From Caldicellulosiruptor owensensis OL (lineage in GTDB: Bacteria; Bacillota; Thermoanaerobacteria; Caldicellulosiruptorales; Caldicellulosiruptoraceae), in NCBI RefSeq assembly GCF_000166335.1, contig NC_014657.1, positions 2,297,501-2,361,500 on the forward strand: a DNA stretch of 64,000 bases, in the 5' to 3' direction. Position numbers and translations under genes: made by a program. The notes beneath the pieces are model-generated. The model saw only the letters and a list, made by a program, of their open reading frames with translations, was not told the DNA's origin and ran no database searches. Of the stretch, positions 42,362 through 60,035 are shown one piece after another. How positions within the stretch are numbered: position 1 is the stretch's first letter; every line of letters begins with the position of its first letter.

Positions 42362-42752
42362 TTGGATTATTTGGAAATTTTAAGAACATTTTTTTGAAAA
42401 TCAAGATGACGTATTAATGGCTTTTCTATTTGGTTCAGTTGCGAAGAATAAAAATACAAAAGAATCAGACATAGATATAGCTGTTTACTTGAGTAAATAC
42501 GACCAAAAAAGAGTCTTTAGCCTTTGGAACAAACTTGAAGATCTGTTGAAGAAAAATGTAGATTTGATTGTGTTAAACAAAGCAAATTGTGACATTGCAT
42601 GGGAAGCCTTAAAAGGAAAGAAAATTTTAATAAGAGATAATCAATTCTTTATTAATTATTTCTTAGAAGTTTCTCAGGAAGCAGAAGACTTTAGAGAAAT
42701 TCTTTTAGAAATTTTTAAGATAAGACTGGAAAGAAGGAATAAAAGTGCTTGA
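42362..42752 (+). pseudogene. MntA-type nucleotidyltransferase antitoxin, frameshifted
   Basis: The frame opening at TTG 42362, after AAGAGGTG, reads YLEILRTFF and hits a stop in a run of seven T near 42390-42396. Removing one T joins ENQDDVLMAFLFGS and the rest of the gene. The second frame has GSVAKNKNTKESDID, the GS-X10-DxD nucleotidyltransferase motif of MntA. An alternative start at ATG 42417 would remove the first ~18 residues but keep the catalytic motif, so residual function cannot be excluded. Confidence 0.7.
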
Positions 42753-42765
42753 ACATTAAAATAAG

Positions 42766-43125
42766 TTGAGTATATTGAAAAGGGTTGACTTTGTTTTCTT
42801 AGAAATTGAAGATTTGGAACAGTATAAAAACTTAACTTTTGAAGTATATAGTAAAGACAGGTTTATAAGGCAAAACGTTGAAAGAATAATTGAAAATATT
42901 GCAAATGCTATAATCGACATATCAAAAATTATTATTGCAAACTAATTCAATATAATAGATATTGCTCTCGCCACATCTATCGCAGAAGTTGCAAGATTGC
43001 GCAATATACTAGTTCACCAATATTTAGATATTCGATGGGAATATTTAAAAAATTTTATTGACGAAAAAATAGGAGATGTTTATAAATTTTTAGAGAATAT
43101 TTTGAATTTTGTAAATTCTATTTAG
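42766..43125 (+). pseudogene. HepT-type HEPN toxin, interrupted by a stop
   Basis: A single frame from TTG 42766 to TAG 43123, with an in-frame TAA at 42943. The second part carries RLRNILVHQYLDI, the HEPN R-x4-H (RNILVH) ribonuclease motif followed by Tyr. The stretch around the stop is shorter than in typical HepT proteins. Partner of the MntA gene 13 bases upstream. Inactivated toxin. Confidence 0.65.
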
Positions 43126-43287
43126 TCATTTGTGTTTAATGAATCATGAATATTACTTTTTTTTAATTTCTATGGAATTCACGAAACTGAAAAATTTATA
43201 AGTACTAAATTTTTATTTTTAAATTTGAAGAATTTACTTAGAAAATTAAAAAAGTTATTATCTTGACCATTTAAAAAAAACATATTC

Positions 43288-43316
43288 TTGATATAAAACG
43301 AGAAAAGGGGTATAAT
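43288..43316 (+). promoter_or_regulatory. SigA-type promoter of the leader region
   Basis: TTGATA (43288-43293), 17-base spacer, TATAAT (43311-43316). No gene starts within 140 bases; instead a structured region follows. Confidence 0.65.
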
Positions 43317-43322
43317 TGTTAA

Positions 43323-43436
43323 TAGAAAAGTGTTTTCTCTCAAGTAAGTTTTGTTGGTAACCGGCACCCGACTAATAAAATGCCGGCTCGTAAGTTCTCA
43401 AAAAAGAGCCCTGATTTACAGAGGGCTCTTATTCTA
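43323..43436 (+). ncRNA. Putative structured leader or small RNA ending in a terminator
   Basis: Downstream of the promoter at 43288, CCGGCA (43361-43366) pairs with TGCCGG (43381-43386). AAGAGCCCT (43404-43412) pairs with AGGGCTCTT (43422-43430) and is followed by ATTCTATAT. The layout is that of a ~110-nt RNA with an intrinsic terminator, upstream of an ABC exporter operon. It does not match a riboswitch class I can name. Confidence 0.45.
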
Positions 43437-43459
43437 TATATTCTAAAAAAGGGGAAATA

Positions 43460-43633
43460 ATGCGTGAAACCTCAACTCCACTTTTTATCCAAACTCCTCA
43501 ACAAAGAAAGGGGCTGAGGCAAAGGACAAAGCCTTTGACCAATCCAGCCCCTTCCAAAATCTATTCTAAAAGGAGGAGTCTCATGTTGGCATCTTTTACT
43601 TTCTTTTCGTCAGCCCTTCTACTTAATATTTAA
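43460..43633 (+). CDS. Possible 57-residue leader peptide
   Basis: The ATG at 43460 follows AAGGGGAAATA (tight). The frame runs 57 codons to TAA 43631. A second in-frame ATG at 43583 has a stronger site (AAAAGGAGGAG) and would give a 16-residue hydrophobic peptide, MLASFTFFSSALLLNI. A large hairpin (43508-43516 with 43545-43553, plus an inner stem) lies inside the frame. It may be a regulatory leader of the ABC operon or simply spurious. The rest of 43634-43790 holds nothing else I recognise. Confidence 0.3.
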   Translation: MRETSTPLFIQTPQQRKGLRQRTKPLTNPAPSKIYSKRRSLMLASFTFFSSALLLNI

Positions 43634-43790
43634 TCTAAAATTTTTTAAAAAAGTATAAAGAAATGTTTAAAAATTTGTAAACAATCTTTTAACAAAGACA
43701 TGACAAATGTCACTATAAAAATTTTCTTTAATAGTATATTATAATATCAGCAGTAAAATTAAATTTTTGTAAAGAAGGTGTAAAAAAGCT

Positions 43791-44756
43791 ATGCTTGCAC
43801 TTGAAGTCAGAAATCTTGTGAAAAGATATTCAAATATTCTTGCACTTGATAATCTTTCGCTTTCGATAAAAGAAGGAGAGGTTTTTGGACTTTTAGGGCC
43901 AAACGGTGCAGGAAAAACAACTTTTATAAACTGTATACTGGGACTCACTCCATTTGACAGAGGTGAAATTTACATCTTTGGAAAACCTCTCAATAAAGCC
44001 TTGAAAGAATTAAAATGGCAGATTGGAATTGTCCCCCAGGAGATAGCACTTTACAGCAACCTGACTGTGTATGAAAACCTCAGTTTTTTCGGTTCTCTTT
44101 ATAATTTGTCAGGTAAAGTTTTAAAAGAAAGAATAGAATTTGCTCTTGAGTTTGTTCAGATGCAGGACAGCATAAAGAAACAAATAAAAAACCTATCTGG
44201 CGGAATGAAAAGAAGGGTAAACATTGCCGCAGCTCTTTTGAATAATCCAAAACTTTTGATAATGGATGAACCCACTGTTGGAATTGATATATTCTCAAGA
44301 AAACTGATTTTAGAATCTGTTGAAAAACTCTCTGGAAGTGGTATTACAATTATTTATACAACTCATTACATAGAAGAAGTTGACAGAATATGCACATCTG
44401 TTGCCTTTATAAACAAAGGAACTATAATAGAATACGGTCCAAAAGAGTTTCTTATCAGAAAACTATCAAACAATAATATAATAAGAATAAAGCTTGGCAA
44501 ATTCAAAGATGAAGCTATTTCAAAAATTAAGAAAATAAATGGAATAGAAAAAACATCTTTTTCTGAAAACGAACTTATAATCACTGCAAATAACTCCAGT
44601 AATTTAATAAAAGATATTATCGAAGTTCTCTCTCAAGAACAATGTGAAATACTTTCAATATCATATGAAAAACCAACTATGGAAAAACTGTATTTTGCAG
44701 TAATGGGTTATACCATAGACGAAAAAGGAGAGATTGTTCATGAAATCAGCAGTTAA
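43791..44756 (+). CDS. ABC-2 type exporter ATPase
   Basis: 321 residues. Walker A GPNGAGKTT, Q-loop IVPQEIALY, signature LSGGMKRRVNIAAAL, Walker B LLIMDEPTVGID, H-loop TTHYIEE; a C-terminal ~90-residue regulatory domain follows. Of the DrrA/antibiotic-exporter type. The ATG is the first gene of a three-gene operon whose junctions overlap. RBS is GAAGGTG. Confidence 0.92.
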   Translation: MLALEVRNLVKRYSNILALDNLSLSIKEGEVFGLLGPNGAGKTTFINCILGLTPFDRGEIYIFGKPLNKALKELKWQIGIVPQEIALYSNLTVYENLSFFGSLYNLSGKVLKERIEFALEFVQMQDSIKKQIKNLSGGMKRRVNIAAALLNNPKLLIMDEPTVGIDIFSRKLILESVEKLSGSGITIIYTTHYIEEVDRICTSVAFINKGTIIEYGPKEFLIRKLSNNNIIRIKLGKFKDEAISKIKKINGIEKTSFSENELIITANNSSNLIKDIIEVLSQEQCEILSISYEKPTMEKLYFAVMGYTIDEKGEIVHEISS

Positions 44757-45885
44757 AGCATTTTTCTTTACTTTAAAAGAAAATATTATGAGTATTCCAC
44801 TTCTTTCAATAATGCTTATCTTCCCAATTGTTATCATTTTTATACTTGGAAATGCTCTGTCTGGATATTTCAAACAAACTGACATTCCAAAGACTAATAT
44901 TATTCTTGTTTTTGAAGATAATCTTAAACCATATATTCATGATACTCTCTTGAAAAACGATAAAACCTTTTCAAAGCTGTTTGAGTCAGAAGTTGTTTCT
45001 TCAAAGTCCGATGCCATAAAAAAGTTTTCAAGTTCAAATAAATACACAGCTGTTGTTGTTTTCAGACAAACTAAAGAAAATGGCCCAAAAAGTTACAGTC
45101 CTTTTGGTTTTGATATACAAATCATGGCAAAAGGAGGCTTTCCTGAAGCCGGGTTTGTAAAAGTTTATTTTTCTATATTTTCAAACTACTATAAATTTGC
45201 AAAAAACATTTATACACCACAAGATATCCCGAAAAATATAGAATTTGAATCTGCGTTTTCAGGACGTTTTCCAAGAGCTATTGACTACTATGCTGTTACA
45301 ATGGTTGTTATGATGGCTCTTTACGGCGCTTTTGCTGGAGTTGCTGTAATAGAAGGAGAAAGAAGACAGAACACTCTAATTAGACTTTTTGCATCACCCA
45401 AAAATCCACAGATAATATTTGTGTCAAAAGCGCTTGCGCAAATGGTATTTTTATATGTCCAGCTTTGCATAATAATAATCTTTTCAAAACTTGTTTACAA
45501 TGCTAACTGGGGTAAAAACCTTTCTTTTGTATTCCTTTTAATTCTAATCTACAGCATATTTTGCATTCTTTTTGGAATTTTGATTGCACTTGTTGCCAAA
45601 AGCTATGTTTTCTCAAATGTTCTTATAAGCTCGTTTGCTGTTATAGCAACATTTCTGGTTGGCGGGTATACAAGAGTTAATATATCAAACAGATTTCTTG
45701 CATCTATAAGAGATATTCTGCCAAACAACGTTGTGCAATCAACATTGTTTAGCATAATATATAACCCATCTGAAACAAATACCTTGAAAATTGCTTTTGT
45801 CTACTTCGGTATACTCTGTACAGTAGTTGCTATAATATGTATATTTCTGATGAGGGCGGTGAAACCATGGCAATTTTCAAAATAA
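44740..45885 (+). CDS. ABC-2 type exporter permease 1
   Basis: 381 residues: a membrane span near the N-terminus, a ~150-residue external loop and five or six spans in the C-terminal half, including AFAGVAVIEGERRQNTLIRL. This is the ABC-2 permease plan (YhgE/Pip-like). The start is the ATG at 44740 after GGAGA, overlapping the ATPase gene by 17 bases. Confidence 0.88.
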   Translation: MKSAVKAFFFTLKENIMSIPLLSIMLIFPIVIIFILGNALSGYFKQTDIPKTNIILVFEDNLKPYIHDTLLKNDKTFSKLFESEVVSSKSDAIKKFSSSNKYTAVVVFRQTKENGPKSYSPFGFDIQIMAKGGFPEAGFVKVYFSIFSNYYKFAKNIYTPQDIPKNIEFESAFSGRFPRAIDYYAVTMVVMMALYGAFAGVAVIEGERRQNTLIRLFASPKNPQIIFVSKALAQMVFLYVQLCIIIIFSKLVYNANWGKNLSFVFLLILIYSIFCILFGILIALVAKSYVFSNVLISSFAVIATFLVGGYTRVNISNRFLASIRDILPNNVVQSTLFSIIYNPSETNTLKIAFVYFGILCTVVAIICIFLMRAVKPWQFSK

Positions 45886-46976
45886 ACATAAAGCGGCTTT
45901 TGAAGGATAATCTCAATCTATTTTTTATGATAATACTTCCTGCAATTGCAATCTCAATTTCTACATTTTTTTCAGCAAGCGTTGAAGCACCATACACCAT
46001 TGGAATTATCACAGACAGTGAAAAAAGTCCTCAGGTAATGTTGATTGAAAAAGAGCTCAAAAAATGTTTTAACATAAAACCCTTTGACAGATCAAAATCT
46101 ATTGTGAGCCAGATGGTGCAAAGCGGAATTGATTGTGTGATTGATTTGACAAATAAAGATGTTGAAGATATCTTAAACCAAAAGAGAAAAAGTATAAAGA
46201 TATATACATTTGGAAAATCTGAGACATATATGATTTTAAGGGAATATTTAGGCGGCATAATACGAATAATTGTCTCGCAAAAAAGACTTGTTCACGATTA
46301 CTTAAAAGTGTCAGAAAATATATTGTCATACGCACCAGCTGTGAAAACCAATATTATCCACCAGAATTCAAAACAGCTGCCGGTTACTTTTGCTTCTGGA
46401 TTCTTTGTAATGTCTCTTTTCTGGCTTGCTCTGAATGCTTCAAACATAATTCTCAAAGATTATCATGAAAGAGTTATACTTCGAATTCTTTGCGCTCCAA
46501 TATCAAAACAAAGTTACATCCTCCAGTCAATTTTGAGCATATTCTCTGTAACGTTAGTTCAGATAATTTTCTTTGTTGTAATGTGTACCTTCGGGTTAAA
46601 ACTTTCTTTTGGCCAAAATATAGCAGTTGTTATTCTGGTTCTATCTGCCTGTAGCTTTATGTTTGTAGCATTTGGCGTTATGCTGATAAGCATAGTAAAT
46701 GATATGCGAAAACTTTCTACTCTAAACTCAATGGTTGTAACAATAATGTGCATGCTTGGCGGCTGTTACTGGCCTTTGAGTATAATGCCAAAGTTTTTGC
46801 AAAAGATTGCTCTCATTTTCCCAACAACATATGCAGCAGCTCTGACAAAAAATGTGCTTCTCTCAAAACCACTTGGAAGTATGCTTTTAGATATAATCAT
46901 AGTAGTGGCATTCTGCGTACTTTTTATTCTGGTGGGAATAAAACAGCTTTCTAAAAATGTAATTGCAAAGGTGTGA
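45867..46976 (+). CDS. ABC-2 type exporter permease 2
   Basis: 369 residues, same topology as the preceding gene (span at ~18-38, external loop, C-terminal spans with LNASNIILKDYHERVILRIL). The start is the ATG at 45867 after GAGGGCGGTG, overlapping the upstream gene by 19 bases. The two permeases would form a heterodimer with the ATPase at 43791. Confidence 0.88.
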   Translation: MAIFKINIKRLLKDNLNLFFMIILPAIAISISTFFSASVEAPYTIGIITDSEKSPQVMLIEKELKKCFNIKPFDRSKSIVSQMVQSGIDCVIDLTNKDVEDILNQKRKSIKIYTFGKSETYMILREYLGGIIRIIVSQKRLVHDYLKVSENILSYAPAVKTNIIHQNSKQLPVTFASGFFVMSLFWLALNASNIILKDYHERVILRILCAPISKQSYILQSILSIFSVTLVQIIFFVVMCTFGLKLSFGQNIAVVILVLSACSFMFVAFGVMLISIVNDMRKLSTLNSMVVTIMCMLGGCYWPLSIMPKFLQKIALIFPTTYAAALTKNVLLSKPLGSMLLDIIIVVAFCVLFILVGIKQLSKNVIAKV

Positions 46977-46993
46977 GTTGTTTTAAGAAAAAA

Positions 46994-47034
46994 GGGGCTA
47001 TCCAGGTACCTTTCTGGAAAGCCCCCAAATTTAT
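46994..47034 (+). terminator. Terminator after ABC-2 exporter operon
   Basis: GGGGCT-A-TCCAG ... CTGGA-A-AGCCCC hairpin followed by AAATTTATTT. It could serve the plus strand; the minus-strand gene ends at 47120. Confidence 0.6.
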
Positions 47035-47119
47035 TTAGAAAACAGTCTTACAAAGCTTGATTTCGCTAAGAAAGTAAAAGTTTGTCAAAACAAAAATCCA
47101 AAAAGTAATTTGGACAATT

Positions 47120-49630
47120 TTATTTCTCACCATAATATTTTGTATAAACGGCGTTCAGCTTTATTTTTAGCATTGCTGTGCCTTTTGGTGTTTTATTGCG
47201 TGGCATCATAGCATCTTTTACAACATTTATAATACTTATCGAAGAATACAAATCATTTATATTTCCCTGTCCACCTATATTAAATGATTCTCCAAGAGAA
47301 TCAGGAAGCTTTATTGAATTATCAATATCCTGAATACCCGTTATACTGTCTAATTGCTCTGCTATTTTACCTAAATCCGCAGTATAAATGTTTTTAAGAG
47401 GACAATTATATTTAAAAACATCTATACTCTTTGATATGTTGATTCCTTTTGGATTCCAATCATTTAAATCAGGGATTAGCGCAACAATCTGACTTATACC
47501 ATCAAGAGGAAGTGGCTGAGCTAAATTAATAGTTCTAAGCGGTTCAGGAAAGTAAAAAGTGGTATTACCTTTTAGCGTATCTTCTTTTAATAACGGTGGA
47601 ATAACCATTAACATCCCTTGAGGGGGAATATTTTCTTTTGCTCCATATTTTTGATAAATATCTTTTGATCCCTCTTTGCTGGTTGAAGGTTTTTTCAATA
47701 TCCTAACAAGAGAATTGTATATATCCGGGTTGGTAATTGAAGTTGAAGCACTTCCTGATGTTTCAATTTGTTTTTTTCCATCAATAAAACCCTGCCCGCT
47801 AAAGTTGTACTTTGAATTCTTTACAACATAATAAAAGTGATCTTTTATTTCCAGCGTTTCAACAAGAGTTCCTTCAGCTTTCCATTCAAAACTATCTACT
47901 TTGTAAGTGTAGTCATATTTCATACTAAGCTGCATCTCTTTATTGCATTTTCCAGTCTCCACTCTAAATTTATCAGGTTCTTTCATCTTATTTTTAAAAT
48001 TTGCATAAGAATAAACAAGTATAAGTGCTTTTATGTTCTCACTCTTATCTGTTTTAGCTCTGCAGTATTGTTTAACCACTTCAGAAGACCAGTCTTCAAC
48101 AACCCATTTATCACCAATCTTTAAAATAGCTTTTCTTTTTAAATATTTATCATTGGCTATAGATTTTTCAAAAGTAATAGTAACATGTTGCAAAGTTAAA
48201 TCTTGCTGATCAAAAAGATACAAATAATAAGCCATAGCACCAGGCTCCAGTAAAACACTCTCTTTATCCTCTTGCTCAACTCTCATTATTTTCTTTTTAA
48301 AACTCTTTCCAGAAGGACCACCAGTAATTTTACCGTAATCATAATACTTATCGACAGGTGACCAGTTCCAGTTGTAAAGAGCAAATGTTGAATAAGTTTC
48401 TTTAAGTTTTGGTATGTTGTTTTCCAAAAACGGTCTTATTGATTTTGCTCCTTTTTGCCCTGCTGTCTTGATTATATCCCGTATAAAATTTGTCTTTGCA
48501 TAATCTGTAAGATAGTAGAAAAACATATAACTCAAGTATTCAAACCCTTTACCAGCCCCTATTCTTTCTTTATCTAACGTTTTGAAAAATCTCGGGTGCC
48601 ATGCATGTTCTAAATTATAGTTCGGATAGACATAGTTTTCAGCCCATACAGCAGTTGCTTCACAGAGCCATTTTTCATCAGGGGTGTCATAACCCACTTT
48701 ATATTCATCCTGAAATGCATGAAATAGTTCATGTGCTGTTGTTGATTTATTTGCCTTTTCATTATTTGCATGTAAAATATTTATTCTTATCCTGTAATTC
48801 CCTTCTTCGTACCACTCCAACCCATATAACTTCTTTTCCAATTCAACCAGTTCAATTATGAAAGGCTTTGAAGGTTTTATTTTCATTAAACTCTTGAATT
48901 TGTTCCATGAGTAGATTATTGATTCTTTAATATATGAAACAGTATTCTTTATAGATTGTTTTTTCTTTTCAGACCAGTTTTTTTCTTCATAGTATAATAT
49001 TTTAAACTTCTGCCCATCATGTTTAAACTCTTGTACACAAAGCTTATTGTCTTCAGCTGCATAGGCTTCTTCAAATAATTTAATTCTTGAACTTTTATTT
49101 TTCTTTTTGTCCAAATTAAAAAAGCTCTGCGGATGGTCTATGGGAAGAAGATAAGGTAAAACCTCGCTGCGCGTTTCCTTTGATAATTTATTCCAGTTGT
49201 TTATTAAATACCGAATATCATATTGAGCTGTGTCTGGAGGTTCAACTGATACATATTCCTTTGGAAGTCTTTTCGGATCAAAGTTTGAAATAACTTTTAA
49301 AACAGCAGCTTTTTCCCTGCTTATCTTACCTTTAATCAAAGCATTTTCAATCAGCTCTGTTGAATTCGGTAAAAGATTTTCGTAGCTGTCGCTACGTGCC
49401 GAAAACAAATTTACAAGTTCTTTGTCAAAACCTTTTAATTCTTTTGAAACATCATTCTTTACATTACCAACTGGTTTTGTTTCAGAAGAAGTTGTATTAG
49501 ATGCAGAAAATTTAATATCTTTTGTAGCATCATTTTTACTTACTGCAGAACATCCAATCATAGATAAAAAAACAAAGATAAACACAAAAATAAGGATAAT
49601 CGAAAATAGTTTTTTGTAAAATATTTTCAA
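47120..49630 (-). CDS. Large lipoprotein with gluzincin-like zinc peptidase site
   Basis: 836 residues. Lipoprotein signal with lipobox SMIGC (Cys27). A HELFHAF motif (H300-E301-x-x-H304) is followed 20 residues later by WLCEATAVWAEN (E324), the arrangement of gluzincin metallopeptidases. The long C-terminal part is beta-rich and unrecognised. No partner gene is obvious; it stands alone, with AT-rich flanks. The 235 bases up to the next gene hold nothing I recognise. Confidence 0.75.
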   Translation of the reverse strand: MKIFYKKLFSIILIFVFIFVFLSMIGCSAVSKNDATKDIKFSASNTTSSETKPVGNVKNDVSKELKGFDKELVNLFSARSDSYENLLPNSTELIENALIKGKISREKAAVLKVISNFDPKRLPKEYVSVEPPDTAQYDIRYLINNWNKLSKETRSEVLPYLLPIDHPQSFFNLDKKKNKSSRIKLFEEAYAAEDNKLCVQEFKHDGQKFKILYYEEKNWSEKKKQSIKNTVSYIKESIIYSWNKFKSLMKIKPSKPFIIELVELEKKLYGLEWYEEGNYRIRINILHANNEKANKSTTAHELFHAFQDEYKVGYDTPDEKWLCEATAVWAENYVYPNYNLEHAWHPRFFKTLDKERIGAGKGFEYLSYMFFYYLTDYAKTNFIRDIIKTAGQKGAKSIRPFLENNIPKLKETYSTFALYNWNWSPVDKYYDYGKITGGPSGKSFKKKIMRVEQEDKESVLLEPGAMAYYLYLFDQQDLTLQHVTITFEKSIANDKYLKRKAILKIGDKWVVEDWSSEVVKQYCRAKTDKSENIKALILVYSYANFKNKMKEPDKFRVETGKCNKEMQLSMKYDYTYKVDSFEWKAEGTLVETLEIKDHFYYVVKNSKYNFSGQGFIDGKKQIETSGSASTSITNPDIYNSLVRILKKPSTSKEGSKDIYQKYGAKENIPPQGMLMVIPPLLKEDTLKGNTTFYFPEPLRTINLAQPLPLDGISQIVALIPDLNDWNPKGINISKSIDVFKYNCPLKNIYTADLGKIAEQLDSITGIQDIDNSIKLPDSLGESFNIGGQGNINDLYSSISIINVVKDAMMPRNKTPKGTAMLKIKLNAVYTKYYGEK

Positions 49631-49865
49631 ATTAAAAAACTCCTTTCAATATTAATAGGTGCATTACCAAGCTGCATTTAACGTTATAGAACTGTTAAAA
49701 TTAAACTGGCTTTCTTCATTATTTGTCTCACTCTTTCCCCAACTATTTTTGTAAGTTCTTTAAAGGAAAACTGATATAATCCCTTATCAACAAGTCATTA
49801 AAGTATGCTGGCAATCCTGTTTGCCTTAATCTTGCGTTTTAAGGTTATTATAATACACATTCACC

Positions 49866-50885
49866 TTATATCTGCTTCAGGTGCTCCTGAAGCAATCTTT
49901 CTAATTCCATAACCGTTCCATCAAAATTTAAACTCTGGTGTGTACAAATGTAATTATCACCTCTTCTCTCAATAGAAATAAAATGGTTAGCTTCATCAGT
50001 AGGAGCTAAGAAGTAGCGTCCAACACTCTCTACTTTCCCGGATAAACGTTTGAGCACAGAAACTTCAAAACCAATAGCAGTATTCCAGAAGATGCTAAAC
50101 TCCAGGCCCAGATACTTGAGTGTAGGACCAAATAAATATACAGCTTTATTACTTTTTCCTTCGACAGCCCGGGTATAAAAACCAAGTGCACGTACCATTT
50201 CCATATGCTGACCAGAAAAAACCAGAGATGTTTTCCCTAAATCAGGAACAAGACGTAAAAAGGCTGGTAATAACCATCTTATGTCTGGGCTTTTCAGTTC
50301 ATGATCAAACACTGTTAAAAACTCTTCTTCGTAAATTGCTTCAACCGATTTTGCGTTGCTGCTTAGCATCTCGTTAAGGTATGCCCGACGGTAACAATCG
50401 ATAAATGCTAAAATAATCAGCATTACCTCTAACGAAACCTCTGGTTTAATTAAATTAGGAGAAGGTTTGGCAACATGTGCAGCATATAAAGTAGCAAGAT
50501 AAGAACAACAAGCATTAAGGTCTTCAAAATATATAGTCTCTACCAAGTTATTTGAACTGCCTACATATACCACAGCTGTTTTTTCTCCATCCCTTCGGCT
50601 GTATAACCTGAAACTTTCTGGAGGTCGACCCATACCACCCACGCAAAATGATACTCTTAATTCAGGTGCAGCCAAAACATTAGCTATGCGTTTCAAATCA
50701 GGATCAGATGCAAGAGCTAATACTTCTGCTGATAGTTGCTCACCTTCTTCCGGCTGACCAATAAAAGGGGATAGAGAGTTTAAACCCAATCGATAATGGT
50801 AACGAGCCAGTCGATAAAGCTCACCACCATCCATGCGGAATACAGGTATTTTATCAATTGTAATTATTTGGTTATTGTTTGCCAT
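49866..50885 (-). CDS. Unrecognised 340-residue soluble protein, last gene of the operon
   Basis: No known family seen. No signal or clear membrane spans, mixed alpha/beta composition; notable segments: PVFRMDGGELYRLARYHYRL (N-terminus), ELRVSFCVGGMGRPPESFRL, and a C-terminus IERRGDNYICTHQSLNFDG. Two start codons are possible: ATG 50885, 9 bases after GAGGAG, and ATG 50918, overlapping the upstream stop; the former is chosen. It is coupled to the 1450-residue exported protein, so it may be a chaperone, adaptor or immunity protein (speculation). Confidence 0.75.
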   Translation of the reverse strand: MANNNQIITIDKIPVFRMDGGELYRLARYHYRLGLNSLSPFIGQPEEGEQLSAEVLALASDPDLKRIANVLAAPELRVSFCVGGMGRPPESFRLYSRRDGEKTAVVYVGSSNNLVETIYFEDLNACCSYLATLYAAHVAKPSPNLIKPEVSLEVMLIILAFIDCYRRAYLNEMLSSNAKSVEAIYEEEFLTVFDHELKSPDIRWLLPAFLRLVPDLGKTSLVFSGQHMEMVRALGFYTRAVEGKSNKAVYLFGPTLKYLGLEFSIFWNTAIGFEVSVLKRLSGKVESVGRYFLAPTDEANHFISIERRGDNYICTHQSLNFDGTVMELERLLQEHLKQI

Positions 50886-50907
50886 TTTACATCGCTCCTC
50901 TTTATTC

Positions 50908-53900
50908 CTATTTTTCATTTAAATGTGATCTTATCACTGCAGCAATTACTGCTTGCAACGCTTGTTTTGAAGTTTTAACTTGCGCATTATGTGCCACCTC
51001 AGAAATCAATTTTGTACTCAGTTTTTGAAGTCCTTCAATACGCCCAGCTAACTTATTTGCAAGGTCTATGGGATCTTCAAATCCAAGTTGCTTGAGACCC
51101 AATATTCTGGCTTGTGGCGACAAATTCCGGTTAGAAACTATTTCCATTGCTTTTAGCATATTTTCAGGTACATCCTCAACCGGCAGACCAAGCTTGCGAA
51201 AAGCTTCGGTCAATTGGTTAGTTAGTTTTCCCATTTTGGCTAATTGTTCAAAAGCTTCAGTTTGGTTAGCCAGTCCACCACGATTAAAAAATTCTTGTAT
51301 CTTATAAGTTTCCATCATGCTCAATCCCTGTGGGTCCATTAATCGTGCAGAAGGAGTGCCAGCCTTCAAAAGATCAACAGCACTTTCTCCTGCCGGCAAA
51401 TTTTTGCGCAGCGGATGTTCTGCCCATTTACTGAAATCTACAGCAGCTTCAGGTGAAAATACATCAGTTACTTCCTGGTTATGCCGCTTTGCAAAGACTT
51501 CCAGTTGTTGTTCCCTGGTTAGCTGATGCCAGTTAACATCTGGCATCTCAGCCTGAGCTTTTTCTATGTTGAACTTCCCACTTTCATCCAGCATGCCCGA
51601 AGCCTTTGCAAACTCTTCATGGTAGATACCAGGTAGAGTCACTTGCTGGTTATGCCGCTTTGCAAAGACTTCCAGTTGTTGTTCCCTGGTTAGCTGATGC
51701 CAGTTAACATCTGGTATCTGAGCTTGAGCTTTTTCTATGTTGAACTTCCCACTTTCATCCAGCATGTCCAAAGCCCTTGCAAAGTTTTCGTTATATACAT
51801 TAGCTACTTCTTTTAACTTCAGTTCGCGGACAACTGGATTGCCTTTGTTATCAACAACGGGTTGACCGTTTGCGTCAGTAATTTTAATTCTTGCAGAAAG
51901 GTCATTGTCGGCGTTAAGTCTTATTCCTTCTGCAGATGTACCCGGTGTTCGAATAGAAATTATTTCTACTTCCACTTTTGTTCCCGGTCCGTATTGTTTT
52001 TCAAGTTCTGTCTTAAATGACGAACGGCTGTTTAATATCTCATTCAGTTTACTTTTGGTGTTATTGATTGCTGGTTCATATAGATTTTTTTCAAGTGCAT
52101 TTTGATATGCACGCTTTATATCTTCGGGTGCATTTTTAAGCTCGCGTGTTACGCTGGGGTCACGAAGCACCCTCCTGATATCATCAACATCAAGCTCACT
52201 TCCCGTTTTAATCTTTCCAGCGATCATTTCTGCCGTGTCTTTTACTTCTGCACGATACCTAATATAATCAAGAGCATCAGAAGTTTTACGGCAAAGACTT
52301 TCTGCAGGGTCAACCATACCTTTGTATGCCTTTTTAGCTGTACCTTCCACCATTTCTTTTGTCTGTTTTTGCCAGAGCAATTCTCCAACCGGAGTGTTAA
52401 GTTTCTTTGACATATATTCCATTGCCTTTGGACTGAGTTTCAGCTCAAAGTGTTTTAAAAATTCTTCACCGCAGGCACCTGCCAGCTCACCCAGCGTATA
52501 TTTGCCAACAGCTTTTAAGGTTGCCTTAACTTCATCTTCACCAGCTTCAATGCTTTCTTTAATATCATACATAGCCTCGCCTACAGAAAGAGGTATTTCG
52601 CTGTAGCCCCCGGTCAAAGCAGCCAATGTCATTCTACCAGCCATACCAGCCCATGTTCTGCCAGTTACTATATCAAGACTGCTCTGGAGTGAGGTATCTG
52701 CAATGATGTTTATGTTAGTGACATCGTTCCAAAAGTCCTGCAAATCAGCTTTTATTCCAGATAAGAAGCTACCATCTCTTTTTGAAAGAGGTTCAACACC
52801 TTTTACAAGTCTGCTACCTTCTTCTTCACTTATTGTGCGACCTGTAAAACGATCAGTTACAACCCGCGCTATTCGGCTTGCACGGTCGCGCAGATTCTCA
52901 GTAGATATTTTTATATTGCTAAGGTCATCAATAAGCCTGTCGATATTCGCATTAACATCTCCCACACCTGGTGCAGGAGGTTCAATGCCATAAGCCCGGT
53001 TTCTTATCTTCTGCAACTGCTCAAGCAGTCGCGAACGTTCTTTCTGATCGCTGACAAGCTTATCCATTTCTCGGTCAAAAACTGTATTTCCCGTTTCTAA
53101 CTTATACCTTTGTGTTTCAATAAAATCTCTGTCTTTTTCAATATTGGGCAGAACATCTTTTTCATATCTTTCCATATCAAATATGTTACCAGTTTCCGAA
53201 TTATACCACTGACCTGTCTCCGGATTATAAACTATCTCGGCAGTACGCCCGGTATGATCAATTGTGAGAACCAATGTATTAGTATTAGCAGACATAGTAT
53301 TTATTTCATCAATTCGCTGGTTAAGATAACTTATATACCTGTCATAATCCTGTAAAAGCTCTTTTGCCTGTGGGTCACTCAGATCTGCTGATTCTTTAAA
53401 GAGTTCTAAGTTGTGGAGCCATTCATCCCTTTCAGCAATAAGTCTATCATACTCACTAATAAAAAGTTTTGTGCCAAGGTCAGAAAACAAAATTTCATTA
53501 AAACCATAATCCTCTTGTATTTCTTTTTCTTCTTTACCAACTTCATAATTTTCTTCTGTCTGCTCGGTATAACTTTCATTAATGTCTTCAATAGCAGTGT
53601 CAAAAACATTATTTTCTTTTATAGAATCAGGGTCAGGTACAGCCTCAGCCCATACTAACAGGGCAGCTGCCTCAGGATTTTTACTTTTTAGTTCTTCAAA
53701 AGCTGCATTTGCCTCTTCCACCCTGCGACGGTAATAACTCTCTACAATCTGGGCAAAAACAGAAACAAAAGGTGGGAAAAGCATACCTGTTGCTGCCTGA
53801 AACGGAGTATCAGGTCCGGGGATATTACCTGCCGTACCAAGCCGTTGCGATATAGCAGCCATCACAAACGCAGGCAACTCACGTCTGAGCATTTGCCCTT

Positions 53901-55260
53901 TAGCACTAATATTATAGGTGTTAAAATCCATTCCCTTGCCACTAACATAAGGTCTAAAATAGGTTCCATTACCTGTAGCGCTAAAAAGAGGCGCAAGTCC
54001 CGGTGGCTTTTCAAGAACAATATTAATTGTTGCTGACACCTGCGCTGGTTCAGGCAAACGCACCCTAAAAGAGCCCGGTAAAGACTGATTCAATCTCTTT
54101 ATATTTTCAGAAATTGGTCCCAGCCATGTTGAACCTTTTATAATAGCTTTTAACTTGTTTTCTTTTGATTCTGCAATCTCAGCCGTGAGAGAAAAAGGTA
54201 TTTGTTCATAACGTCCAATGATTTGCAGATGACTGCCCTGATCAAGAATAGTAAGTTCATAATCTTGTAAAGAAAAATCGGGTTTAGAATTGAAAGTTGA
54301 TCCCATGAGAGTACTACTTTTGACAGCATTTAAGTTTATAGAATATGTGCCGGTAAAGTTAAAACGTGGTTTTTCCAGCGCTCCATTAGCTGATTGTAAG
54401 TCATCCTCCTGAAGATTAAAAGAACCCTGGTTTGTTTTTGGTTTTTGTTTATCTCCCTCTTCGAGTTGTAAATTTGAACGAGATTCATTCTTGTCAGCTA
54501 CTTGCTGCTGCATACCATCGTTCTGTACTATTCCAGATCTACTGGCATCTTTAATCTTTTTAAGCAGCAAAGAAATTATCTCTTTTTTTTCTTCATGAGC
54601 CCTTTTAGCAGCATAATCAACACCTGTCAAGAGCACGGCCGGAACCGTTTCTGCTTTGTCACCAGTAACCAATGGAATATTAGATTTGATAATCAATTCA
54701 TAGTCGCCAGCCGGCAAGATAATATCTTCTTCTGAAAACCATAATGCATCTAAATAAACAGGATATTCTTCCAAACTTTTTTTCGTAACATTTACTTCTT
54801 TGACATCAAAAGACCTATAGAATTTGCCTTCAGAATCCTTTAAAGAAATACTCACCTTAACCGACCGGGCAGCTGACGCCGCCGGTTGTTTGGACTGCAA
54901 GTCTTTCCGGTAATCAGAAGTTTGCATAAGGGGAATGTAAATTTTCTTTAGCATTGATGTTGATTTTAACGACATTTTGACTGCAGGCAAACTTGAAAAA
55001 TTGTCGATGTTAAGAGGTGTTCGCTTACCGCTATATTCAACCAAAAGAAATGTCCTGCCATCATACTTTGCATATTGGGTCTCCCATGAACCATTTTTCA
55101 GAAGCACCCTTTCCCATGGCTCATCATTTTCTACAAAATTGGTTTCTGCCTTAGAAAATACAGGAAAGGTTAAAAATAAAAGAAATACTGTTAAAATAAC
55201 TTGAATGAGTTTTAATTTATTATGACCTGATACTTTCAAAGTTATTTTAAACACCCCCAT
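50908..55260 (-). CDS. 1450-residue exported protein, unknown, polymorphic-toxin-like features
   Basis: Signal sequence about residues 16-38. Residues ~40-235 beta-rich; 235-300 charged, Gln-rich linker; 300-440 another beta region; 530-760 acidic coiled region; a motif YNPETGQWYNSETGN near 690; hydrophobic helical stretch ~870-930 (RTWAGMAGRMTLAALTGGYS); C-terminal ~350 residues with AEGIRLNADNDLSARI and two near-identical 57-residue repeats. The layout recalls large secreted or polymorphic toxins, but no toxin domain is identified. The ATG at 55260 follows AGGAGGGG. It is in one operon with two membrane proteins upstream and a soluble protein downstream. Confidence 0.75.
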   Translation of the reverse strand: MGVFKITLKVSGHNKLKLIQVILTVFLLFLTFPVFSKAETNFVENDEPWERVLLKNGSWETQYAKYDGRTFLLVEYSGKRTPLNIDNFSSLPAVKMSLKSTSMLKKIYIPLMQTSDYRKDLQSKQPAASAARSVKVSISLKDSEGKFYRSFDVKEVNVTKKSLEEYPVYLDALWFSEEDIILPAGDYELIIKSNIPLVTGDKAETVPAVLLTGVDYAAKRAHEEKKEIISLLLKKIKDASRSGIVQNDGMQQQVADKNESRSNLQLEEGDKQKPKTNQGSFNLQEDDLQSANGALEKPRFNFTGTYSINLNAVKSSTLMGSTFNSKPDFSLQDYELTILDQGSHLQIIGRYEQIPFSLTAEIAESKENKLKAIIKGSTWLGPISENIKRLNQSLPGSFRVRLPEPAQVSATINIVLEKPPGLAPLFSATGNGTYFRPYVSGKGMDFNTYNISAKGQMLRRELPAFVMAAISQRLGTAGNIPGPDTPFQAATGMLFPPFVSVFAQIVESYYRRRVEEANAAFEELKSKNPEAAALLVWAEAVPDPDSIKENNVFDTAIEDINESYTEQTEENYEVGKEEKEIQEDYGFNEILFSDLGTKLFISEYDRLIAERDEWLHNLELFKESADLSDPQAKELLQDYDRYISYLNQRIDEINTMSANTNTLVLTIDHTGRTAEIVYNPETGQWYNSETGNIFDMERYEKDVLPNIEKDRDFIETQRYKLETGNTVFDREMDKLVSDQKERSRLLEQLQKIRNRAYGIEPPAPGVGDVNANIDRLIDDLSNIKISTENLRDRASRIARVVTDRFTGRTISEEEGSRLVKGVEPLSKRDGSFLSGIKADLQDFWNDVTNINIIADTSLQSSLDIVTGRTWAGMAGRMTLAALTGGYSEIPLSVGEAMYDIKESIEAGEDEVKATLKAVGKYTLGELAGACGEEFLKHFELKLSPKAMEYMSKKLNTPVGELLWQKQTKEMVEGTAKKAYKGMVDPAESLCRKTSDALDYIRYRAEVKDTAEMIAGKIKTGSELDVDDIRRVLRDPSVTRELKNAPEDIKRAYQNALEKNLYEPAINNTKSKLNEILNSRSSFKTELEKQYGPGTKVEVEIISIRTPGTSAEGIRLNADNDLSARIKITDANGQPVVDNKGNPVVRELKLKEVANVYNENFARALDMLDESGKFNIEKAQAQIPDVNWHQLTREQQLEVFAKRHNQQVTLPGIYHEEFAKASGMLDESGKFNIEKAQAEMPDVNWHQLTREQQLEVFAKRHNQEVTDVFSPEAAVDFSKWAEHPLRKNLPAGESAVDLLKAGTPSARLMDPQGLSMMETYKIQEFFNRGGLANQTEAFEQLAKMGKLTNQLTEAFRKLGLPVEDVPENMLKAMEIVSNRNLSPQARILGLKQLGFEDPIDLANKLAGRIEGLQKLSTKLISEVAHNAQVKTSKQALQAVIAAVIRSHLNEK
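51466..51807 (-). repeat. Two tandem 171-bp (57-codon) repeats inside the 1450-residue protein
   Basis: Unit 1 (51637-51807) and unit 2 (51466-51636) differ mostly in the first 14 codons; the remainder, DESGKFNIEKAQA.. to RHNQ.VT, is nearly identical in protein and DNA. This indicates a recent duplication. Confidence 0.9.
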
Positions 55261-55270
55261 ACTACCCCTC

Positions 55271-55792
55271 CTACCGAAACAAATTGATACCTGTTTTTAA
55301 CAGGTGCACAGCACCTTCCAGATATAAAGGAATTTTACCTACAAAATTAAGACTAAAATTCCATGCTATACCTAACAAAGAGGCTGTTACAGAAGCAAAC
55401 AGTGCATCCTTTGCCTCCTGCTTGCCTTTTAATTTACCAAGTTCCACTGCTGCTGCCACAGAGGCAGTCATAAAAGCTGCGGATACAAAACCAGCAAGAG
55501 CTGTCCAGTGCAGCAAATAAGCTGCTACAAGTGACATAAGAGCAAATGGGAGAAGAAATGTCATACCACGTGCAATTGCCTTTTTTACTTCCTTTCGTCC
55601 GTGCTTTTGCTTGAGTTTGCGGTTAGTAATTCCCAAGATAAAAGAAAGCATAAATCGGTAAACTATACCAAAACAGATTCCAGTAATTACCCCCACAGTA
55701 AGGTTAAAAGCGTTAAATCTATCAAAAGGATTATGAACAGCAACTAATCCAAAAACTGCAAAACAAAGAAAAACTAAAAATGAATATTTCAT
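55271..55792 (-). CDS. Small membrane protein of the unknown operon
   Basis: 173 residues with about four membrane spans (~3-20, 28-55, 75-115, 130-155) and a basic loop NRKLKQKHGRKEVKK. No family recognised. It starts 27 bases after the Yip1-like gene and ends 10 bases before the 1450-residue gene's start, so it is clearly in the same operon. Confidence 0.75.
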   Translation of the reverse strand: MKYSFLVFLCFAVFGLVAVHNPFDRFNAFNLTVGVITGICFGIVYRFMLSFILGITNRKLKQKHGRKEVKKAIARGMTFLLPFALMSLVAAYLLHWTALAGFVSAAFMTASVAAAVELGKLKGKQEAKDALFASVTASLLGIAWNFSLNFVGKIPLYLEGAVHLLKTGINLFR

Positions 55793-55819
55793 GTTTTTCC
55801 CTCCATTGCTTGCATCAGA

Positions 55820-56374
55820 CTAAATGTTAGCAAATATCGACCAGGTTACAAGCACCACAATGCCAACTGCACTGGCAAAAATAACTCCCATGGTTGTATT
55901 TCCTCTTGTCATCTCTCTTATTGTAGTAATCAACGGACCGGTAGCCCATAAAACACCGGTTACACCAAATGCTATAGCAGTCTTCCAGTTAAATACTAAA
56001 GAAAAAAACAGTCCAAACAGACCATAAATTAACGCACCACTGTAGCTAAGACAAAAAGAGGAAATAGTCCAGAAAACTGACTTTTCATTTCTGGTTATTT
56101 TAAAAAAACCCCATATCACAACAGCCAACAATGGAATTGCAATAGCACCATAGGCAGCACCTATTGCCACTGATTTTAGGACAAATATGAGCTGTCTTTG
56201 GCCTGTGCGGTAAAGATCTAAGCCAGTCTGTAGAAAGAAAAGAGCAAAAGCAAAGGTTGAAACTAAAAGAGAAAAAACCCATGGTATTTCAGAAATTGTT
56301 GACTTTAAAATAGTTGTGGGATTCAACATCATAGATATGAGAGTGTGTAAAACAGGCACTTTGGTTAACTTCAA
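55820..56374 (-). CDS. Yip1-like membrane protein of the unknown operon
   Basis: 184 residues with five predicted spans. NPTTILKSTISEIPWVFS near the N-terminus resembles the Yip1 entry segment, and the pattern of spans fits. The start is TTG at 56374 after AAAGGGG. First gene of the operon; divergent from the LuxR-type regulator 203 bases away. Confidence 0.65.
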   Translation of the reverse strand: MKLTKVPVLHTLISMMLNPTTILKSTISEIPWVFSLLVSTFAFALFFLQTGLDLYRTGQRQLIFVLKSVAIGAAYGAIAIPLLAVVIWGFFKITRNEKSVFWTISSFCLSYSGALIYGLFGLFFSLVFNWKTAIAFGVTGVLWATGPLITTIREMTRGNTTMGVIFASAVGIVVLVTWSIFANI

Positions 56375-56577
56375 ACCTACCCGCCCCTTTTGCCTTACTT
56401 AAACTTGTATCTTTATTTTATAAAGCAACTTTTCAAATTTCTTCACCCCAAAAGGGTGATTTTGGCTTTAAAGGCATGATATTTTTCATTATTTTAAAAA
56501 TGATAATGATATAGTTAAAACAGAAATCTTATGATAAAATTGATCTTGTTGAGTATCCCCTTGAGGAGGGATTAAAT

Positions 56578-57981
56578 ATTAAATACTCTTATTCAGGTCT
56601 TGGATTGATGTTCGGGTGGCTATGGCTTTTATTTATTAACGGCCCTTTACTTTTTAAATCAGCAGAAAATTTGAATATATCTCCAGAAAGAATTTATACA
56701 GTTTTCTTCTTTGCACATTTTTCAACTTACCTTGTATTAAGTTTATTGCCGGAAAGGTTATTTAAAAAGAAAAACAGAAATATCTTGATAATTTTAGGGG
56801 CACTGTTTACATCAACAGGCACATTATTTTTCGGAATAAATATCTTTTCTCATATAAAAACTTTAGTTTATATTCTTGCCTCTTTTTCCGGAATAGGAGC
56901 TTCAATTTTAATTTCTTTTTGGCTCGAAATTTATAGCAAAAATGCCTTAAAAACGATTAGTATTTCTTATATATTTTCTGTTATTTCAGGTTCTTTAATC
57001 TTTACTGTTGTTCAGTTTTTACATTTTATTTATGCTATAGTTTTTACATCATTATTACCATTACTTTCTTCAGTTTTGCTGCTGTCAGATGAAACCATCA
57101 ATGAAAACTATGATATTGAAGAAACAAACGAAAACTTTCTTTTACCTTTCAGATTAATTTTGATAATTGCGGTGTTTTATTTAGCAAGCGGACTTTTGCA
57201 ATGGATAATATTTTTTAAAGGATATTTTCCTTCTTCTAAACTTTACTGGCTTTCTACAACAGTATATGCTATTTCTTCATGCATGGCAGGATTTTTAATC
57301 TTTCGAATACCTGATTTTAATTTGAACAATTTATATAAACCTGTTCTGCCACTTTTAGGCGCTTCATTTACTCTTTTGCCGTTTGCCGGTAAAATACTTA
57401 CACCGCTTATCTTGGGTCTTTTTTACAACACTGCATTTGCATTTTTTGATTTTTATACAATGTGTACAATATGTCTTTTTTCAAGCAGGGTAAAAAAGCC
57501 TATAAAGCTAATAGCACAGGGGTACTTCTTTATAACTTTATTTATTTTCATTGGAGAATTTCTTCCAAACAGGTTGGTTTCGACGATACCATTCATGGCA
57601 AGTAAATCAGATACAGTAGCCATATCAGCGGCTATATTAATGTTTGTAGCGTCAGTTTTAATAAAAGAAATTTCTGTTGACAGTAAAGAAAAAGAAAGTA
57701 ATTTTATAATTGAAAGCAATGTTGACAGGTCAATGCTTGACTTAGAAAGTTTTGCTAAATATTACAAGTTAACACTGAGAGAAAAAGAAATACTTAGCCT
57801 TATTCTATCCGGCAGAAATAATCCCTATATACGAGACAGCCTTAATATTTCAAATAATACTTTGAAAACCCACTTGAGAAACATATACACCAAACTTGAT
57901 GTTAAAAACCGGCAGGAGGCAATAACCCTCTTTAATAAATTTTTAGAATCAAAAAATAGCAAACCATCACACACCGGATAA
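56578..57981 (+). CDS. Membrane-bound LuxR-type regulator (12-span sensor, C-terminal HTH)
   Basis: About 467 residues: up to twelve membrane segments (MFS-like) and a C-terminal LuxR helix-turn-helix, LTLREKEILSLILSGR .. NNTLKTHLRNIYTKLDVKNR. The translation start looks like ATT 56578 (7 bases after GAGGAGGG), giving N-terminus IKYSYSGLGLMFGW; the nearest standard starts (TTG 56605, ATG 56608) are 34-37 bases from that site. Probably senses a small molecule and controls a neighbour, most simply the divergent operon. Confidence 0.82.
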   Translation: MKYSYSGLGLMFGWLWLLFINGPLLFKSAENLNISPERIYTVFFFAHFSTYLVLSLLPERLFKKKNRNILIILGALFTSTGTLFFGINIFSHIKTLVYILASFSGIGASILISFWLEIYSKNALKTISISYIFSVISGSLIFTVVQFLHFIYAIVFTSLLPLLSSVLLLSDETINENYDIEETNENFLLPFRLILIIAVFYLASGLLQWIIFFKGYFPSSKLYWLSTTVYAISSCMAGFLIFRIPDFNLNNLYKPVLPLLGASFTLLPFAGKILTPLILGLFYNTAFAFFDFYTMCTICLFSSRVKKPIKLIAQGYFFITLFIFIGEFLPNRLVSTIPFMASKSDTVAISAAILMFVASVLIKEISVDSKEKESNFIIESNVDRSMLDLESFAKYYKLTLREKEILSLILSGRNNPYIRDSLNISNNTLKTHLRNIYTKLDVKNRQEAITLFNKFLESKNSKPSHTG

Positions 57982-58028
57982 AAAGCTATTTTTCTTGAAG
58001 ATTTCTCTATAATTTATGATAAAATAAT

Positions 58029-59008
58029 TTGATAGTATTTTTATCATTTGATTTTTTAAAAACTGAATATCTCAAACCCAGACCTTTAATCTTAACCGCA
58101 TCTTTTTTTCAGCTTTTGATAATTGCAATTTCAGTTAGCATGTGCGGATGGGAATTTGCTTTTTTGATGCCTTGCTCTGTAGCCATTTTTTAGCAGCAAA
58201 GAAAAATCTTTGTTTGTTGCAGTATTTGCAGGTTTGCTTGTGCCAGTATTTTTTATACCCTCAGTTATTATAAAAGAGTACTTATTAATCTCCGTGCTTG
58301 TTGTGTATACAAAATATCTACACAAAACTTTTGAAGTCAGCAGACAAAAATATCTGGAGAATATCGACAAGCTAAGACTTTTAAATATACAGCTAAATAG
58401 ATTAAAATCAGAACTTCTTGAATCCCAGCAGTATATAAAACAGCTTGCTAAAAAAACTCAACAGATGAAGATGTCATCATCTTTGTACGATTCTGTAGAG
58501 CACAGCTTAGCTGCGCTCAACATTCAACTGAACGCTTTGAAAACTCTTTTAGACAAAAAAGGAGTACTTGAAGATGTCAAGATAAATCAGATTCTGTCAA
58601 ACTGTTTTATGAATACTCAACTCTCATATCAAAATCTTCGAAATTTTGTATATTCAAGTAGAGCTTCTTTTTTATCAAAAGCAAATTATCTGAACAATGT
58701 AATAGAAAATTTTAACTATTGCGATGTAAAACTTGTAACTGATGGAAATATTGAAAGAAGCTCTTGTAAACGTTTCAAAACACTCAGATGCAACTTCAGT
58801 TCAGGTTTGGCTTATTTCAAACCCTGAATATGTTAGACTTCAAATACATGACAATGGTACCAAAAGAGGCGAAATTAAAGAAGGTATCGGACTTTTGAGC
58901 ATAAAATCAAGGTCAAAATCAATGAGAGCAACAGTAAACATAGATAATCATTCTGGTTTTTCTATAGTTGTTTTCGTTCCATTAAAATATCAGGGAGGAA
59001 ATACTTGA
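58029..59008 (+). pseudogene. Broken NarL-type sensor histidine kinase
   Basis: Three segments in different frames. First, LKTEYLKPRPLILTASFF with membrane spans to a stop near 58190. Second, from 58210, a further span and coiled coil plus LYDSVEHSLAALNIQL, where the phospho-accepting His of LHDxxxH is Tyr. Third, from about 58742, EILKEALVNVSKHS, QIHDNGTK and GIGLLSIKSR, the ATPase domain. Frameshifts lie near 58190 and 58740. The start is approximate. It cannot work as a kinase as it stands. Confidence 0.75.
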
Positions 59009-59650
59009 GTGGAAAAAACAAAAATACTTATTGTTGATGACAATAAAGATGTTTTATATGGGTTAAAAATCATACTTGAACTTGAAAATTTTGAGGTCGC
59101 AGGGCTTTGTACAAATGCAAAAGAGGCAATAGAGTTTCTTGAAAAAAGACATGCAGATGTTGTTCTTATGGACATCAGAATGCCTGTGATGGACGAAATT
59201 GAAGGCACTTTTAATATAAAAGTTAGATTTCCCAGTGTCAGGGTTATTATACTTACAACCTTTTGTGAAGAAGATTATATAAAAAAGAGCCTGAGCTTTG
59301 GAGCAGATGGTTATATTCTCAAAAGCTCAGACGCTCAGCATATTATAGACACGATACATGCTGTTTTAGATGGCAAAGTTGTAATAGATAAGGAAACAGC
59401 TTTATTTGTTGCAAATAGTCTGAAAAAAGATTTTCAAAATCATAGTATAAATGAAAATAAGTTGAAAAATCTTTCTGAAAGAGAACTTGAAATTGCAAGG
59501 TTAATTGCACAGGGATATTCAAATAAAGATATTTCAAAAATACTTTTCATCTCAGAAGGAACTGTTCGTAATTATATTTCTTCTATTCTTGAAAAGTTAG
59601 AACTTAAAAACAGAACTCAAATTGCTGTATATTACTTTAGCAATATGTAA
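59009..59650 (+). CDS. NarL/FixJ-family response regulator
   Basis: 213 residues. Receiver domain with acidic pair D10-D11, phospho-acceptor D55 (LMDIRMPVMD), Thr and Lys positions kept (ILTTF, YILKSS), then a LuxR HTH (LSERELEIARLIAQGYSNKDI). The GTG start (59009) follows GGGAGGAAA. The cognate kinase directly upstream is broken, so it is an orphan, perhaps served by another kinase or acetyl phosphate. Confidence 0.92.
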   Translation: MEKTKILIVDDNKDVLYGLKIILELENFEVAGLCTNAKEAIEFLEKRHADVVLMDIRMPVMDEIEGTFNIKVRFPSVRVIILTTFCEEDYIKKSLSFGADGYILKSSDAQHIIDTIHAVLDGKVVIDKETALFVANSLKKDFQNHSINENKLKNLSERELEIARLIAQGYSNKDISKILFISEGTVRNYISSILEKLELKNRTQIAVYYFSNM

Positions 59651-59738
59651 AAATTCCACTATTTAATATATTGACTTCTTGCTTTCAGCAGTTTATTATA
59701 TAATTAATTGCTTATGAGCTTATGAGGTGTTATGAATT

Positions 59739-60035
59739 ATGCAAATGGAAGAAAGGTTAGCAAAAATATTTAAAGCGCTTGCTCACCCAATAAGAGTAAA
59801 AATTGTTGAAAAGCTATCAGAGGGCGAAAAGTGTGTATGTGAGCTCCTGGAATTTGTTGAATATTCCCAGCCAAATTTGTCGCAGCACCTTAAAATATTG
59901 AAAGAGGCAGGAATTATAGAACATCGCAAGATAGGACAAAATATCCATTACAGAATCAAAAACGATATTATTAAAAATATACTTTTCGGTGCAAAGGACC
60001 TCATTTTACAAATACATGAATTTGAAAGGATGTGA
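59739..60035 (+). CDS. ArsR-family metal-responsive repressor
   Basis: 98 residues with winged helix and the metal site EKCVCELLEFV of As(III)/Cd-type ArsR proteins, then YSQPNLSQHLKILKEAGII. RBS GAGGTG. It leads an operon with a permease and a small thioredoxin-like protein. Confidence 0.92.
   Translation: MQMEERLAKIFKALAHPIRVKIVEKLSEGEKCVCELLEFVEYSQPNLSQHLKILKEAGIIEHRKIGQNIHYRIKNDIIKNILFGAKDLILQIHEFERM

Follow-up and report, generated by a model that had tools for sequence, protein, structure and literature searches.

In a 64,000-nucleotide stretch of the genome of Caldicellulosiruptor owensensis OL (contig NC_014657.1, positions 2,297,501 to 2,361,500; hereafter the window), a minus-strand operon of four genes, here named A, B, C and D, probably encodes a polymorphic toxin-like system with a chassis of its own, made up of the membrane proteins A and B and a PGP element in the large exported protein C, and with a chaperone, D, of predicted EspG fold; we put the probability of this reading at about 0.6. 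C would be synthesised with a Sec-type signal and held by cytosolic D, a putative dedicated chaperone that would bind it. It would then exit through Sec, with A and B as presumed partners or anchors, and finally be released or stay membrane-bound. A and B may recognise the PGP-hydrophobic element of C, and the tail of C would be an exchangeable effector, probably an enzyme, presumably toxic and presumably acting on neighbouring cells.

The initial annotation of this DNA had described a single operon of four unrecognised genes, and both parts of the description are borne out. Of the four open reading frames (ORFs), A and B are separated by a gap of 27 bases and B and C by one of 10 bases. The last 11 bases of C are shared with D; starting D at its second ATG (position 50885, the start used in the initial annotation, giving 339 residues) would instead leave 22 bases between the two genes. 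Shine-Dalgarno-like sequences precede B and C. None of the four proteins has a credible score against any Pfam, NCBIfam, PADLOC or PHROGs family, in line with the statement that no known toxin or enzyme domain could be seen in the large protein. Scattered Pfam rows for POB3_N, COG5_N, Cmyb_C and MrpH_C, all under the cut-off, were rejected, as were a known defence system, for which the only PADLOC row was a weak Cas4 for a D relative, and mobile-element cargo, C being without a homologue in the plasmid, phage and viral contig collections.

The two membrane proteins and the 1450-residue exported protein of that annotation stand as well, with hydropathy indicating about five hydrophobic segments in A, about four in B and a signal-like N-terminus in C. 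Within the cassette, conservation is highest in A, whose homologues in 13 loci are 35-58% identical, and homologues of B (28-41% identical) directly follow A in other loci. Like the Yip1-domain membrane proteins (PF04893), A is small and multi-span, and 8 of 14 A homologues match the Yip1 profile weakly, under the Pfam cut-off (best E-value 2.6e-4), but the A of the window has no match to that profile at E-values up to 1. The proposal that A and B are a split form of the multi-span module found at loci L131 and L047 was unsupported by profile against single-sequence comparison.

An alignment of A, run against 84,980 species genomes, yielded 68 loci. The initial annotation had suggested looking for the same four genes elsewhere, and A-B-C-D in this order are found together in dozens of other genomes, implying that the gene set is beyond chance; as a rule, D or a D-like gene comes after A-B-C. 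Most loci belong to Clostridia, among them Syntrophomonas, Desulfotomaculaceae, Sporomusa ovata, Acidaminobacter and Geosporobacter, and the remaining ones are labelled Thermotogota, Chloroflexi, Actinomycetota, Verrucomicrobiales and Bacteroidetes, the cassettes in other phyla being more divergent. Named carrier strains are Sporomusa ovata DSM 2662, Acidaminobacter hydrogenoformans DSM 2784 and Schaalia suimastitidis DSM 15538. Among 398 genomes of the phylum, 16 contain a C homologue, C. owensensis included, and 18 contain the D core (beyond the zinc ribbon alone): all 16 with C and two without A-B-C (G185 with locus L131, G196 with L132), in which D adjoins large multi-span-module proteins.

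Predicted fold of D and type VII secretion markers

The last gene had been called soluble and without a known family. D has no signal sequence by hydropathy and falls into no sequence family, so that this much holds, but its predicted fold is recognisable. An EspG fold was suspected beforehand from the sequence pattern of D-like proteins, and modelling of D from 34 aligned sequences followed, giving a mean predicted local distance difference test (pLDDT) score of 90.9; the model was compared with 350,542 PDB chains using Foldseek. EspG1, EspG3 or EspG5 from mycobacterial ESX systems take all of the first 13 ranks, with E-values from 3.5e-7 to 3.9e-5 and a probability of 1.00, compared with 0.11 for the next match. 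The model thus predicts an EspG-like fold for D; close homology is not claimed. At the sequence level, 11 D homologues gave no match to the Pfam EspG family (E 0.1), and the sequence-profile matches of D to PDB chains include no EspG chain. In the alignment first made, 10 of 11 D proteins carry a C-terminal zinc ribbon, which is missing from the D of the window and, by this comparison, has been lost there.

The markers of type VII secretion were not found alongside this fold. No WXG100 protein is matched in the C. owensensis genome, and in 14 carrier genomes no such match passes the cut-off; the only EssC match in the C. owensensis genome scores 119.6 bits against a cut-off of 778.4, with matches under the cut-off occurring also in control genomes of many kinds. 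Because neither WXG100 nor EssC is found over the cut-off, the EspG-like protein apparently works outside type VII secretion, and D would be an EspG-like chaperone of that kind.

Chassis and exchangeable tails of protein C

C is polymorphic. The initial annotation had suggested looking for variable C-termini, and homologues indeed combine a conserved N-terminal chassis with differing C-terminal domains. Two main chassis types can be distinguished: type I (the window and L048-L067), related to about the first 760 residues of the window's C, and type II, in proteins of about 1600-2400 residues with long GYDxxGF repeats. Both carry a GxIPGP sequence followed by a hydrophobic element (together the PGP element), which is present in 51 C proteins across several phyla, and the motif xDPxTGxWVNxxTG, whose window version YNPETGQWYNSETG had already been pointed out. 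Further along, a helical Gly/Ala-rich region (WAGMAGR...LTGG.SE) is shared with L051 and type II and is a candidate chaperone-binding or membrane region.

Cysteine makes up 0.126% of the 53,198 residues that follow the PGP element in the 51 C proteins and 0.575% of those before it, as against 1.18% in the D core, 0.75% in A, 0.78% in B and 1.09% in other ORFs. The low-complexity repeats of type II depress the value for C, but most type I parts behind the element are still nearly or wholly free of cysteine. The contrast between C and D speaks for complete export of C and for D being cytosolic.

The window carries tail alpha, a domain of about 330 residues found also at L051, L080, L101 and in most type II proteins. 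R-T-P and N-x-D-N-D are invariant in 19 tails, and these residues, together with an invariant H, D, E and K, are all retained in the window copy; such invariant polar residues suggest that tail alpha is probably an enzyme. A model of the L051 tail reached a pLDDT of 86.3. Nucleotidyltransferase rows (ANT, CutA) of the structural comparison were non-significant for tail alpha (E about 0.8-2.4), and with the G-x9-D-N-D spacing present this fold is only a lead. The repeats noted earlier in the large protein are a 171-bp tandem duplication (143 of 171 bases identical) inside this tail, seen in the window and not in relatives.

Tail beta occurs at 10 loci, five per chassis type, and has no PDB match by sequence. 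At nine of the 10, an extra gene for a protein of 270-300 residues lies exactly between C and D, whereas the other A-B-C-D loci examined lack it, and the protein is a candidate immunity protein for tail beta. In other C proteins the C-terminus is a Gly/Ala-rich region or a tail unique to the locus (e.g. L081). The alpha superfamily also takes in tail gamma (L047, L061) and the tails of L105, L108 and L131; a first HHalign result, according to which alpha and gamma are unrelated, was overturned because L131, L105 and L108 link them into one superfamily.

The same tail is found on several chassis: type I, type II and multi-span chassis all carry tails of the alpha superfamily, and types I and II also carry tail beta. 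On a maximum-likelihood tree of A, with the whole superfamily labelled alpha, the labels of alpha and beta, the two commonest tails, need 6 changes; when the labels are shuffled the figure is 6.4, with 235 of 500 shufflings as low. At least three of the changes are forced by well supported branches, implying that tails have been exchanged repeatedly. As A and D or a D-like protein accompany different tail types, they belong functionally with the chassis and do not act as immunity proteins for particular tails. On the same tree the type II cassette of the actinomycete S. suimastitidis (L080) nests among Bacillota, suggesting a cassette transfer between phyla.

RHS-repeat proteins are encoded near the cassette at L047 and, at L031, immediately after a short C (Pfam E-values 2.6e-73 and 2.4e-79). 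At L031 (9427-14389), a 509-residue chassis C is followed by a separate gene for an RHS-repeat protein of 1134 residues with its own ribosome-binding-like site. A third chassis, with a multi-span N-terminal membrane module, is present in 6 of the 398 phylum genomes; the module is fused to RHS repeats at L047 (11105-15916) and to an alpha-superfamily tail at L131 (1852-5719), where a gene of the 270-300-residue kind and D follow. Given this arrangement at L131, strict specificity of that gene for tail beta was rejected. Very long arrays of the eight-residue GYDxxGF-type repeat were seen in the C proteins of L095 (11046-17606) and other type II loci of syntrophic Clostridia.

Operon features and genomic setting

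Table 1. Positions of the genes and of the main features of protein C, numbered from the first letter of the window
Feature	Positions	Strand	Description	Basis
Gene A	56374-55820	-	184 aa (amino acids), TTG start, membrane protein	ORF list
Gene B	55792-55271	-	173 aa, membrane protein	ORF list
Gene C	55260-50908	-	1450 aa, exported polymorphic protein	ORF list, homologue comparison
Gene D	50918-49866	-	350 aa, cytosolic, predicted EspG fold	ORF list, model
Signal-like hydrophobic N-terminus	C residues 1-38, 55147-55260	-	likewise in most complete homologues examined	hydropathy
GNIPGP and hydrophobic element	C residues 478-508, 53737-53829	-		51 C proteins compared
YNPETGQWYNSETG motif	C residues 678-691, 53188-53229	-	family motif xDPxTGxWVNxxTG	
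Helical Gly/Ala-rich region	C residues 868-925, 52486-52659	-		conserved in window, L051, type II
Tail alpha	C residues 1000-1415, 51016-52263	-	exchangeable C-terminal domain, predicted enzyme	
RTPG...NADND motif	C residues 1104-1120, 51901-51951	-	R-T-P and N-x-D-N-D invariant	19 tails
171-bp tandem duplication	C residues 1159-1215 and 1216-1272, 51445-51786	-	within tail alpha	143/171 bases identical
Divergent regulator	56605-57981	+	458-aa membrane protein with LuxR-type helix-turn-helix	

The C. owensensis genome (2.43 Mb, a single contig) contains C once, and 11 other genomes of the genus contain no homologue of it. The operon has a GC content of 39.3%, compared with 32.1% and 32.3% in the 5-kb flanks; the initial annotation had suspected transfer from a like difference (40-42% in two lines counted by hand, about 30-34% in flanking genes). 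The difference itself and the absence of C from the 11 congeners agree with that suspicion, but the GC argument alone is weak. The window mean is 35.9%, so that the low flanks contribute as much to the contrast as the high operon. For the divergent regulator and for the lipoprotein gene adjoining the operon, no orthologue was found in the eight congeners searched, where the regulator gave only short matches confined to the LuxR-domain region. Taken with the absence of C from congeners, this makes the region look like an island, and horizontal transfer of the operon region is plausible. Regulators of like design, with a membrane part and a LuxR-type helix-turn-helix, recur near A in many loci, and this position suggests that they are associated with the cassette.

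On both sides of the operon (41000-50000 and 56000-60000) the DNA is AT-rich, with 28-34% GC relative to the rest of the window, and a larger or older island around the operon is possible. The lipoprotein-like gene downstream (47120-49630, 836 residues) has no homologue in the eight congeneric genomes and matches the MXAN_6640 putative metalloprotease model partially, at 71.9 bits against a cut-off of 140. Beyond the regulator, a histidine kinase (58210-59008) apparently lies in two overlapping frames, a HisKA_3 part (58210-58827) and an apparent ATPase part (58742-59008), with a frameshift being possible; a response regulator (59009-59650) adjoins it.

Alternative readings and relation to known systems

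The kind of system, a polymorphic toxin-like protein with a chaperone, is already known. Polymorphic toxin systems, as presented by Zhang et al. 2012 (PMC3482391), consist of exported proteins with a conserved N-terminal region, repeats and exchangeable C-terminal domains. C shares its large size, predicted export, conserved N-terminal region, repeats and exchangeable tails with them, and the small gene that nearly always accompanies tail beta and the RHS proteins in related loci are further likenesses; the exchangeable tails and RHS proteins are thus polymorphic-toxin marks in the sense of that paper. In contrast, the A/B pair, the PGP element and the EspG-fold D fit none of the eight trafficking routes listed in its abstract, and no known toxin domain or immunity family was recognised in the cassette. 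The LXG or type VIIb toxins of Bacillota, which according to the abstract of PMC9600955 are made together with dedicated targeting factors, are likewise Gram-positive polymorphic toxins co-produced with dedicated partner proteins, but C has a Sec-type signal and no recognised LXG domain, and no T7SSb machine was found. With the EspG chaperones of ESX, D shares the predicted fold, the cytosolic character and a gene adjoining that of the putative substrate; it differs in lacking an EspG sequence match and in the zinc ribbon of most of its relatives, and the setting differs in the absence of recognised WXG100 and EssC and in the Sec-type signal of the putative substrate.

Several observations weigh against a toxin-like system served by an EspG-type chaperone. 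D aligns with EspG at moderate template modelling (TM) scores (by query 0.40-0.45, by target 0.35-0.60) and with a large root-mean-square deviation, so that the two halves of D may stand at a different angle. EspG serves type VII substrates, and C has a Sec-type signal. The tail alpha model has no significant structural match among PDB chains or viral models, and the tails examined have no Pfam toxin-domain match. The duplication may have inactivated the tail in the window, and because it lies inside the tail, the activity of this copy is uncertain. The candidate immunity gene of tail beta also occurs with an alpha-superfamily tail on another chassis (L131), and for tail alpha no separate immunity gene was recognised in the window, which is the main gap in the case.

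Of the other explanations, that of a membrane receptor is unlikely. Here the N-terminal half of C would sense the outside, the PGP-hydrophobic element would span the membrane, and the tail would be an intracellular signalling or cell-suicide enzyme curbed by D, A and B. A hydrophobic stretch following an extracellular-looking half in 51 proteins would suit this topology, as would the positive charge that usually comes next in type I and the short C of L046, which ends in a clear hydrophobic segment and then KKR; cytosolic D could bind an internal tail. However, type II lacks the positive charge and continues into very long repeats, beyond the element C contains hardly any cysteine compared with cytosolic D, and the RHS proteins in related loci indicate toxins. 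Those proteins, together with the repeated tail exchange and the partner gene of tail beta, also suit a toxin better than a cell-surface protein, i.e. an adhesin, matrix protein or wall-modifying enzyme with exchangeable catalytic ends, assembled by A, B and D and without any part in antagonism. We consider this improbable, even though the long type II repeats, the signal-like N-terminus and the failure to recognise a toxin or an immunity protein for tail alpha would be in keeping with it. A divergent type VII (ESX) substrate locus, with D a true EspG and C exported by a machine elsewhere in the genome, would account for the predicted fold of D, but is largely refuted and very improbable in view of the Sec-type signal of C and the WXG100 and EssC results described above, including the sub-threshold EssC matches of control genomes. 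Of the roles initially listed (antagonism, surface assembly or secretion), antagonism is now best supported, and surface assembly or secretion is left solely as a proposed function of A and B.

The toxin-like reading with an EspG-fold chaperone can be extended tentatively, with rather less than an even chance of being correct: polymorphic toxins may be exported or delivered along a new route formed by A, B and the PGP element, and EspG-type chaperones, rather than being tied to type VII secretion, may form an older, wider class whose members in Clostridia, Actinomycetota and other phyla pass very large toxins on to this route. EspG is not known to partner anything but ESX substrates, in mycobacteria and relatives, and we found nothing in the open-licence literature on EspG outside a mycobacterial-type ESX setting. 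The same literature yielded no description of the chassis, the A/B pair, the PGP element, the tails or the EspG fold outside type VII secretion, although an earlier one may exist elsewhere. With the cassette, toxin-like proteins would gain a further, so far undescribed class that is widespread in bacteria and has a membrane pair to itself, and an EspG fold tied to another exported protein, with no recognised type VII machine, would make the origin of these chaperones and their general logic testable.

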